A stretch of DNA of 38,280 bases. Source: Candidatus Woesearchaeota archaeon. GTDB lineage: Archaea; Nanobdellota; Nanobdellia; Woesearchaeales; DSVV01. The translations under genes and the position numbers were made by a program. Within the stretch, counting starts at the first letter, position 1. Each line of letters opens with the position of its first letter. Of the stretch, positions 32,127 through 33,979 are shown one piece after another. Where the stretch lies: NCBI GenBank assembly GCA_018303075.1, contig JAGVYW010000035.1, forward strand, positions 1 to 38,280, written 5' to 3'. The notes under the pieces are model-generated. The model had not been told where the DNA came from, made no database searches, and saw nothing but the letters and a program-made list of their open reading frames with translations.

Positions 32127-33260
32127 ATGCAGTATATTTTTCACATAACAAAAGAGAATAAAAAACTACCTATTCAAGAAGTTCTTTCATTGTATGAGTT
32201 AAAGAAATGCAAAGAACTAAATGAAAGCCATATCTTAGTTGATTTAAATGATGATAGTATTAAACTTTATGAAAAATTAGCTTATACTAATGATGCTTAT
32301 AAAGTACTTTTTTCTTCAGCAGAAAAAAGTATCATTGGTAAGATTAAAAAAATTGATTGGAGTAAAGTTTATAAAAAGAGTTTTGCAGTCAGAATTATAA
32401 CAATAGAGAATACAATTAAGAATAATAAAAGTAATAATGATAATAATAATTGTAATGATAACAGTAGTAGTAATAAATTTCATAATCAGGAACAGAGGCA
32501 GAATAAAGAAAGAGAATTTGCAAAGATTATTTATTATAAATTAAAAGATTCAACTGTTGATATGCAAGCTCCTGAAACATTGATTGTTTTCTTTCGTCTA
32601 AAAAATAAGTATTATTGCTGCATTCGAATCTGGCAAAATGATAAATCGTTTATGCTAAGAAAACCACATCTTAAGCCAGAACTGCATCCTACATCGCTTA
32701 ATCCACGACTGGCAAAAGGATGTATTAATTTGATAATTACTAAAAATGATTATGAAAAATGTTTTGAAGATAATAAAGATGATAAATATAAAAAAGAGAG
32801 TGGCATCTTGTTGTTAGACCCCTTTTGTGGTGTTGGAGGAATTCTAGTTGAAGCAGGTCTGTTAGGGATTAATGTAATTGGCGTTGATAATGAACAAAAG
32901 ATGATTAATGCTTGTTTAGAAAACTTAAACTATTATGGGATTAAGGATTGTAAGCTTTTAATTAATGATGCTACGAAAATCACAACAAAAGAACTTGGAT
33001 TGAAAGCTAAAGAAATAACTGCAATTGTTACTGATGTGCCTTATGGTAAAAATACTAAAAAGATTGAGCATGAAAAGCTGTATAATGCTTTTCTGAAGAA
33101 TGCAGCTATGTTAACTGATAAGATGATTGTGATGTTTCCCGATTTTGTTTATTATAAGAAAATAATTAGAGATTCTGGCAAATGGAAGATTAAAAAAGAA
33201 TTTAGTGTTTATTTACATAAGAGTTTGAGCAAGAAGATAGTAGTATTAGAACGAAAATAA
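32127..33260 (+). CDS. THUMP-type tRNA guanosine-10 N2-methyltransferase (TrmG10)
   Basis: The 377-residue protein has an N-terminal THUMP-like region (about 1-160) interrupted by an Asn-rich low-complexity insert (about 93-125), then a Rossmann methyltransferase with LLLDPFCGVGGILVEAGLLG (SAM loop, about 229), GVDNEQKM and TDVPYG (about 303), the N/DPPY-equivalent catalytic motif of the Trm11/TrmG10 family. It forms m2G or m2,2G at position 10 of tRNA. A tRNA-Pro gene lies directly downstream. The Asn-rich insert is unusual. Confidence 0.85.
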   Translation: MQYIFHITKENKKLPIQEVLSLYELKKCKELNESHILVDLNDDSIKLYEKLAYTNDAYKVLFSSAEKSIIGKIKKIDWSKVYKKSFAVRIITIENTIKNNKSNNDNNNCNDNSSSNKFHNQEQRQNKEREFAKIIYYKLKDSTVDMQAPETLIVFFRLKNKYYCCIRIWQNDKSFMLRKPHLKPELHPTSLNPRLAKGCINLIITKNDYEKCFEDNKDDKYKKESGILLLDPFCGVGGILVEAGLLGINVIGVDNEQKMINACLENLNYYGIKDCKLLINDATKITTKELGLKAKEITAIVTDVPYGKNTKKIEHEKLYNAFLKNAAMLTDKMIVMFPDFVYYKKIIRDSGKWKIKKEFSVYLHKSLSKKIVVLERK

Positions 33261-33363: not shown

Positions 33364-33480
33364 GGGGCTGTGGGGTAGTTTGGTCCATCCTTGCTGGTTT
33401 GGGACCAGCGGACCCTGGTTCAAAAAACAATAGTGTGTACAAAAAGTATATATTTTGTTTTGAAAGTCCGGGCAGCCCCA
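33364..33480 (+). tRNA. tRNA-Pro(UGG) with a 42-nt intron in the T-loop
   Basis: Acceptor strands GGGGCTG (33364-33370) and CAGCCCC (33473-33479) pair fully; the discriminator is A 33480; CCA is not encoded. The anticodon arm GCTGG-TTTGGGA-CCAGC (33393-33409) reads UGG. The T-stem CCTGG (33414-33418) and CCGGG (33468-33472) pair with one G-U. Between them are 49 bases instead of 7. Removing 33425-33466 gives the consensus loop TTCAAAT. A TATA-like TTTAAAA near 33325 would give a short 5' leader. Confidence 0.88.
33425..33466 (+). other. Non-canonical tRNA intron with a bulge-helix-bulge
   Basis: Exon bases TTCA (33419-33422) pair with intron bases TGAA (33461-33464), a 4-bp central helix. 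On the 3' side AGT (33465-33467) forms a 3-base bulge before the T-stem; on the 5' side AAA (33423-33425) forms the other bulge before an inner helix ACAA/TTGT. Cutting after the second base of each bulge removes exactly 42 nt at position 59/60. Confidence 0.7.
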
Positions 33481-33541: not shown

Positions 33542-33979
33542 ATGGTTGAAGAACTTAGACTTAATGCAGCAAAACGATTTGGAACTAGATATGGAAGAAC
33601 TGTAAAACAGCGATTTATAGAAGTTGAACAATTACATAGAAAAGCATACAAATGCGAACATTGCACTAAGATAAGAGTAAAAAGAATTGCTGCAGGAATC
33701 TGGCAATGCTCAGCATGCAATTCAAAATTTGCAGGAAAAGCATATACTCCTAGCAGATTAAAACTAGCTCAAATTACTGGTAAAGAGGTAATGGAAGACG
33801 ATCTTTTAACACCTCGAGAAAAAGAAGAAAATTATAATGCTGATCAAAATGAAAATCAGCCACAAATAAAAGAAGAAAGCCAAAAAGAGAAAAAAAGACG
33901 TAAAAAAGAGCTGTTAGAAGAGCAGCAGCAGAAAGAAGATCAAGAGACTCAAGCTCAAGAAGAAAATCAAACAGAATAA
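33542..33979 (+). CDS. rpl37ae: Ribosomal protein eL43 (L37Ae) with a long charged tail
   Basis: From ATG 33542 (GTGAT 6 bases upstream) the protein has 145 residues. The first 80 are a normal L37Ae: AAKRFGTRYGRTVKQR, zinc ribbon CEHC (about 40-43) and CSAC (about 58-61), and FAGKAYTPS. A tail of about 60 Glu/Gln/Lys-rich residues follows, absent from usual archaeal homologues. The tail may be a disordered extension or assembly factor contact. First gene of the eL43-rpoP-pcc1-pfdB cluster. Confidence 0.93.
   Translation: MVEELRLNAAKRFGTRYGRTVKQRFIEVEQLHRKAYKCEHCTKIRVKRIAAGIWQCSACNSKFAGKAYTPSRLKLAQITGKEVMEDDLLTPREKEENYNADQNENQPQIKEESQKEKKRRKKELLEEQQQKEDQETQAQEENQTE

Follow-up and report, generated by a model that had tools for sequence, protein, structure and literature searches.

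An intron at position 59/60 of tRNA-Pro(UGG) in many Woesearchaeota, and a single detected gene for the splicing endonuclease EndA

Introduction

Noncanonical tRNA introns with a bulge-helix-bulge (BHB) splice motif are known from the Crenarchaeota, above all the Thermoproteales, and from the Nanoarchaeota, at positions 20/21, 25/26, 45/46, 53/54, 56/57 and 59/60; the Thermoproteales also have introns at 3/4 (PMC4090602). tRNA-Pro(UGG) of Pyrobaculum islandicum is among the tRNAs with noncanonical introns (PMC4090602), and the permuted tRNAs of Thermofilum pendens have their junction at the same T-loop position, 59/60 (PMC3218864). Outside the Thermoproteales, many noncanonical and multiple introns occur in the Asgard Atabeyarchaeia and Freyarchaeia, which are not DPANN and for which the accessible part of the source describes no 59/60 intron in tRNA-Pro (PMC11291895).

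The enzymes that cut these introns differ in subunit composition. EndA of the Crenarchaeota and Nanoarchaeota is a heterotetramer, (alpha-beta)2. The epsilon2 enzyme of ARMAN-2, an ultrasmall archaeon with a broad tRNA intron repertoire, is a 390-aa three-unit fusion with an ASL loop (PMC12397907). An Arg and a Trp mark the (alpha-beta)2 and epsilon2 types and two Arg mark alpha4 and alpha'2, and relaxed BHBs are processed efficiently only by (alpha-beta)2 and epsilon2 enzymes (PMC6379350, PMC12397907). Relaxed BHB motifs also belong to the wider intron family (PMC6379350).

Here we describe a tRNA-Pro(UGG) gene with an intron at 59/60 in a 38,280-nucleotide stretch of DNA (the window) from a member of the Woesearchaeota, a species-rich DPANN group. 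These archaea share with the Crenarchaeota and Nanoarchaeota the 59/60 position, the BHB logic, tRNAs with several introns and the extreme introns at 3/4 (PMC4090602). They differ in lineage, many coming from groundwater and sediment, in that one orthologous site is occupied in most sampled members, and in that a single EndA gene was detected. Unlike in the T. pendens permuted tRNAs, one gene holds both halves of the tRNA-Pro in the window in their normal order. Our searches of the open literature, as distinct from subscription papers, turned up no description of noncanonical tRNA introns for Woesearchaeota. Introns at 59/60 are already known elsewhere; what is new, as far as the open literature shows, is a large DPANN group that commonly has an intron at an orthologous site together with a single-subunit EndA gene. 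An earlier reading of the window (the sequence-only reading) had placed introns outside 37/38 mostly in Thermoproteales and a few DPANN, which was too narrow: an entire DPANN group is rich in them, as are the Asgard Atabeyarchaeia and Freyarchaeia (PMC11291895). Common tRNA finders (ARAGORN, Rfam) miss such genes, so the genomes seem short of essential tRNAs.

Results

tRNA-Pro(UGG) is interrupted in the T-loop

The window lies on a contig (C24) of a 1.24-Mb archaeal genome, 95% complete in 44 contigs. We found that the plus strand at 33364-33480 contains a tRNA-Pro with anticodon UGG (anticodon loop TTTGGGA), in which all arms are intact apart from 42 extra bases in the T-loop, TTCAAA|42 nt|T (Table 1). 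The acceptor stem (GGGGCTG, 33364-33370, with CAGCCCC, 33473-33479, followed by discriminator A at 33480) and the T-stem (CCTGG with CCGGG) close around the insertion. ARAGORN called a perfect tRNA-Pro(tgg) once 33425-33466 had been taken out. With the insertion in place, neither ARAGORN nor Rfam recognized a tRNA, and the mature T-loop requires removal of the intron, as the sequence-only reading had held when it made T-arm maturation dependent on splicing. Its coordinates for the T-loop BHB intron, the 4-bp helix, the 3-base bulges and the cut sites agree with the sequence and with ARAGORN, and a BHB intron outside 37/38 in a DPANN lineage is confirmed.

Sequence searches of the genome gave a single tRNA-Pro(UGG) match, and no second such gene was found. 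With an assembly that is 95% complete and split into 44 contigs, a gap could hide an intact copy.

Table 1. Features of the tRNA-Pro(UGG) locus, in window coordinates
Feature	Position	Strand	Basis
tRNA-Pro(UGG) exon 1, positions 1-59, ending TTCAAA	33364..33424	+	Reading; ARAGORN on spliced gene; 61/61 identical in same-genus G001
42-nt BHB intron, position 59/60	33425..33466	+	Sequence and fold; 59 genomes fetched from the order survey have an orthologous intron here
tRNA-Pro(UGG) exon 2, T60 to discriminator A73	33467..33480	+	Reading; ARAGORN on spliced gene
T-stem 5' strand, BHB outer helix h, partner 33468-33472	33414..33418	+	Reading; constrained fold
TTCA, positions 54-57, 5' strand of BHB central helix H	33419..33422	+	Complementarity in 71/83 distinct introns; covariation at 57
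Bulge 1, AA|A; predicted cut after 33424	33423..33425	+	A58 A59 in 82/83 introns
Intron-internal hairpin, inner helix h' one base out of register (relaxed BHB)	33426..33460	+	Folds; comparison of introns
TGAA, i-6 to i-3, 3' strand of central helix H	33461..33464	+	Comparison of 83 introns
Bulge 2, AG|T; predicted cut after 33466	33465..33467	+	T60 in 83/83
rpl37Ae (ribosomal protein L37Ae), downstream neighbour	33542..33979	+	Pfam PF01780, 9e-22; beside tRNA-Pro in ~70 relatives
TIGR01177-like RNA methyltransferase, upstream neighbour	32127..33260	+	Family match

The insertion has the features of a BHB intron: its removal restores a consensus tRNA, a 4-bp central helix (TTCA with TGAA) lies between the junction bulges AA|A and AG|T, and the genome encodes EndA and RtcB. 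The T-arm with the intron was more stable than shuffled sequences (z = -4.9), and the BHB-constrained fold (-46.1 kcal/mol) came close to the free MFE (-47.7 kcal/mol) without reaching it. In a strict hBHBh' motif the inner helix is in register and follows a 3-nt bulge 1 immediately, which is not the case in the window gene. The inner helix AACAA/TTGTT can pair only when U33460 stays unpaired or bulge 1 is shortened to 2 nt, and because of this one-base shift the motif is relaxed rather than textbook-strict. An alpha-only enzyme may fail to cut here, because the BHB is not the MFE structure and the inner helix is shifted. A fold of a single sequence alone is no proof; the case is carried by comparative evidence.

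The 59/60 site is occupied in many Woesearchaeota

With the spliced tRNA-Pro as query, we searched 288 genomes from the order to which this archaeon belongs. Many matches stopped exactly at query base 61-62, which is position 59/60. Among the loci fetched from this survey, those of 59 genomes in 29 family-level groups had a T-loop intron (15-175 nt) at this base. Nearly all of these tRNA-Pro genes lie directly upstream of rpl37Ae, and they are therefore orthologues.

To sample without regard to tRNA introns, we next selected loci by means of rpl37Ae, which gave 80 loci, 62 of them scorable for the T-loop. Scoring was by script and by eye; one T-loop call (L216) was rejected and two loci that were misparsed (L175) or unparsed (L208) were accepted. 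An intron at 59/60 was present in 41 of the 62 scorable Woesearchaeota loci, in a sample skewed to loci resembling the L37Ae of the window's genome.

Pooling the samples gave 83 distinct introns, with a median length of 31 nt (range 15-202). Positions 54-57 and i-6 to i-3, which form the central helix, were fully complementary in 71 of them; in six other registers, full complementarity was found in 0, 0, 0, 4, 0 and 1 of the 83. Bases 57 and i-6 covaried (A-T 55, G-C 16, A-C 3, G-T 3, other 6; Fisher p = 6e-11, uncorrected for shared ancestry). All introns except one (82/83) have A58 A59 ahead of the cut, and T60 follows it in every case. On the intron side, 27 homologues were strict, 28 were offset by one base and 28 were neither. 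About one third of these orthologous introns thus have a strict motif on their intron side as well. The sequence-only reading had stated that introns outside 37/38 need a broad-specificity enzyme, which our results do not support in that form: location at 59/60 alone does not demand one, and the deciding point is how strict or relaxed the BHB is.

Compared with the window gene, the same-genus genome G001 (NC_groundwater_1848) has identical exons (74/74), a diverged intron (36/44 identical) and a 3' flank with 29/45 identities. Within the family, an intron at 37/38 takes its place in G004, G005 and G008, and G006 and G009 lack an intron, so the intron site changes between related genera. In the same class outside the order, matches to tRNA-Pro were nearly all uninterrupted, and the fetched exceptions, G296 and G475, have 59/60 introns. 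From these comparisons, the 59/60 intron appears to be a long-standing, fast-diverging resident of its site in many Woesearchaeota that is absent or replaced by a 37/38 intron in some relatives. The site next to rpl37Ae, with about 80 diverged introns, offers a natural series for the study of intron gain, loss and drift.

Other insertions were seen in tRNA-Pro of relatives. An acceptor-stem intron at 3/4 is present at L061, L076, L092, L103, L117, L125, L127, L170, L173, L185 and L200. Its leader reads GCATG GG|N ... CATG AA|GCTG, with variants, and it often occurs together with the 59/60 intron; L200 adds a 37/38 intron. At L140 (G136) and L136 (G138) the insertion is at ~53/54, just 5' of the T-loop, instead of at 59/60. 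Long 59/60 introns (80-202 nt) are found among L201, L190, L170, L196, L199, L220, L109, L118 and L128. Several of them have blocks such as CAGCTTCTTGCTAAGCTGGCACGCA in common between genomes, and these blocks are perhaps mobile intron sequences.

A single EndA gene with an Arg and Trp pair

We found one copy of EndA in the window's genome (P0001, 187 aa), with both tRNA_int_endo domains (PF02778 and PF01974). A gene for the RtcB ligase is also present. In an alignment of 24 homologues, the catalytic residues Tyr123, His133 and Lys164 of EndA are invariant, as are R157 and W184 (24/24). Comparison with the Methanocaldococcus jannaschii sequence revealed no loop insertion where the crenarchaeal CSL or the ARMAN ASL lies.

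No second EndA or beta gene was found in the window's genome with Pfam at E<=10 and a 24-sequence profile, and the profile search found only one EndA gene in each of 18 other relatives. Nearly every Woesearchaeota genome searched had one EndA gene of ~180 aa and no detectable beta. As a positive control, the identical family search found two EndA genes in genomes of the same class (f94), so the search can detect a beta subunit. A partner candidate downstream of endA (L029, 1938-2768) had no family match and was rejected.

EndA fits no described type cleanly, because it combines one gene, an Arg and Trp pair and no CSL or ASL loop. The single ~180-aa catalytic gene with N- and C-terminal domains is that of an alpha4 enzyme; of the two Arg expected at the bulge-binding site of that type, the second is a Trp. 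The bulge-gripping pair (R157, W184) is that of (alpha-beta)2 enzymes, and neither separate alpha and beta genes nor the Crenarchaea-specific Lys loop, which is not universal in that type, were found. The ARMAN-2 epsilon2 enzyme shares the Arg and Trp pair (PMC12397907); P0001, at 187 aa and with no loop insertion, is not a three-unit fusion of ~390 aa with an ASL loop.

We tentatively suggest, with nearly as much belief as doubt, that EndA of the Woesearchaeota is a broad-specificity homotetramer built from the product of a single alpha-type gene (~180 aa), with the Arg and Trp pair and without beta or CSL/ASL, and that it lets relaxed BHB introns persist at 3/4, in the D-loop, at 37/38, at ~53/54 and at 59/60. 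If so, the single-gene EndA would be an exception to the rule by which efficient processing of relaxed introns is confined to (alpha-beta)2 and epsilon2 enzymes. Textbooks expect two kinds of splicing-enzyme subunit.

Alternatively, EndA might really be a heterotetramer, and an ordinary enzyme, with a beta so divergent that the searches missed it. Its Trp sits where (alpha-beta)2 enzymes have one, and its best PDB match is the alpha subunit of the Nanoarchaeum equitans (alpha-beta)2 enzyme (3IEY, E=3.6e-37), the closest solved alpha homologue, which likewise has a Trp near the C-terminus. N. equitans has a beta gene, and none was detected in the window's genome. However, the N. equitans beta scores E=1e-15 against the alpha of the window's genome. 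The retrieval of two genes in the f94 genomes, yet of one here and in the 18 relatives, also speaks against a missed beta, and we consider this alternative unlikely.

The sequence-only reading had attributed a broad-specificity enzyme to this lineage and had suggested a look at the endonuclease subunit types. EndA, RtcB and the Arg and Trp pair are there; what was not found is any recognized broad type, with a beta (at E<=10), an epsilon fusion or a CSL/ASL, and the subunit found is one ~180-aa alpha-like gene. A broad-specificity enzyme in this lineage is therefore putative. Current classification demands a second subunit or a fusion for relaxed BHBs, and the action of a single-gene EndA with Arg and Trp on them is now testable.

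Alternative explanations of the insertion

Because 33422-33427 is a run of six A, the register of the cuts is ambiguous by eye, and slippage in this run could put them one base off, at 58/59, giving TTCAAGT. However, intronless orthologues read TTCRAAT, the base preceding T60 varies among the introns while A58 A59 and T60 are constant, and the 4-bp central helix with 3-nt bulges is compatible only with 59/60. A shifted register is thus very improbable.

Slightly less probable still is that the gene is a pseudogene, killed by a random insertion of 42 nt. Such a gene would be missed by standard tRNA finders, as this one is, and its BHB is imperfect. Against this reading are the full conservation of the exons in the congener G001, the presence in dozens of genera of an insertion at the identical base with a covarying splice motif, and the finding of no further tRNA-Pro(UGG) in the 95%-complete genome, a point on which the sequence-only reading had asked for a check.

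A self-splicing or mobile group I or II intron, although group I introns are present in Woesearchaeota rRNA genes (PMC6125680), was rejected as having a negligible chance of being correct, because its length of 42 nt is much too small for such an element, the intron region has no Rfam match, and the BHB signature has been conserved.

We conclude that 33364-33480 is very probably a functional tRNA-Pro(UGG) gene, probably the only one, with a 42-nt BHB intron at 59/60, and not a pseudogene.

Proposed splicing of the precursor

As the sequence and the covariation among introns show, the T-stem serves as the outer helix of the precursor, and positions 54-57 (UUCA) form a 4-bp helix with the UGAA that lies close to the intron's 3' end, flanked by the bulges AA|A and AG|U. 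The single EndA would cut after 33424 and after 33466, and RtcB would ligate the exons and restore UUCAAAU. The predicted mature junction, 33424^33467, is ...GGTTCAAA^TCCGGG... Before splicing, the T-loop would be unable to fold, to dock with the D-loop or to be modified. Because 54-57 are base-paired in the precursor, T-loop folding and modification would come after splicing.

Other tRNA genes of the genome

Our searches recovered at least about 26 tRNA genes in the window's genome, about 18 of them interrupted; these are lower bounds, with genes assigned by eye. In pattern searches of the genome, control matches were about as numerous as real matches, and we therefore kept only matches inside a full tRNA. 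Two matches to the T-loop intron pattern (L144, L145) were rejected because they had no surrounding tRNA.

tRNA-Asp(GUC) has a T-loop intron at 59/60 (44 nt, strict BHB). tRNA-Arg(UCG) has three introns (D-loop, 37/38 and 59/60), and tRNA-Ile(UAU) has three in the same places, the one at 59/60 being probable. tRNA-Glu(UUC) has a D-loop intron and tRNA-Gln has two introns; tRNA-Gly(UCC) is interrupted once, in the region of the D-arm. On the spliced genes, ARAGORN called Asp, Arg and Glu correctly and left tRNA-Ile(UAU) untyped; its 37/38 intron needs a one-base adjustment.

Extra tRNA 3' halves lie near an intact gene in several places (L022, 1501-1572, beside L012; L016, minus strand, near 1763; L262). 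The duplicated halves are those of Gly-GCC, Arg-CCU and, in the relative G006, Pro. They are possibly scars of element integration at tRNA 3' ends, or split-tRNA material.

A tRNA-Thr-like gene (L003, G000:C34:16751-16823) has the anticodon loop CTAGTAA, which reads AGU; A34 is unexpected in archaea. On the minus strand of another contig (L267, G000:C39) is a probable tRNA-Trp(CCA) with an intron of ~145 nt at 37/38. ARAGORN did not type a rough splice of this gene as Trp. The intron may contain C/D-box-like motifs, which occur in other archaeal tRNA-Trp introns.
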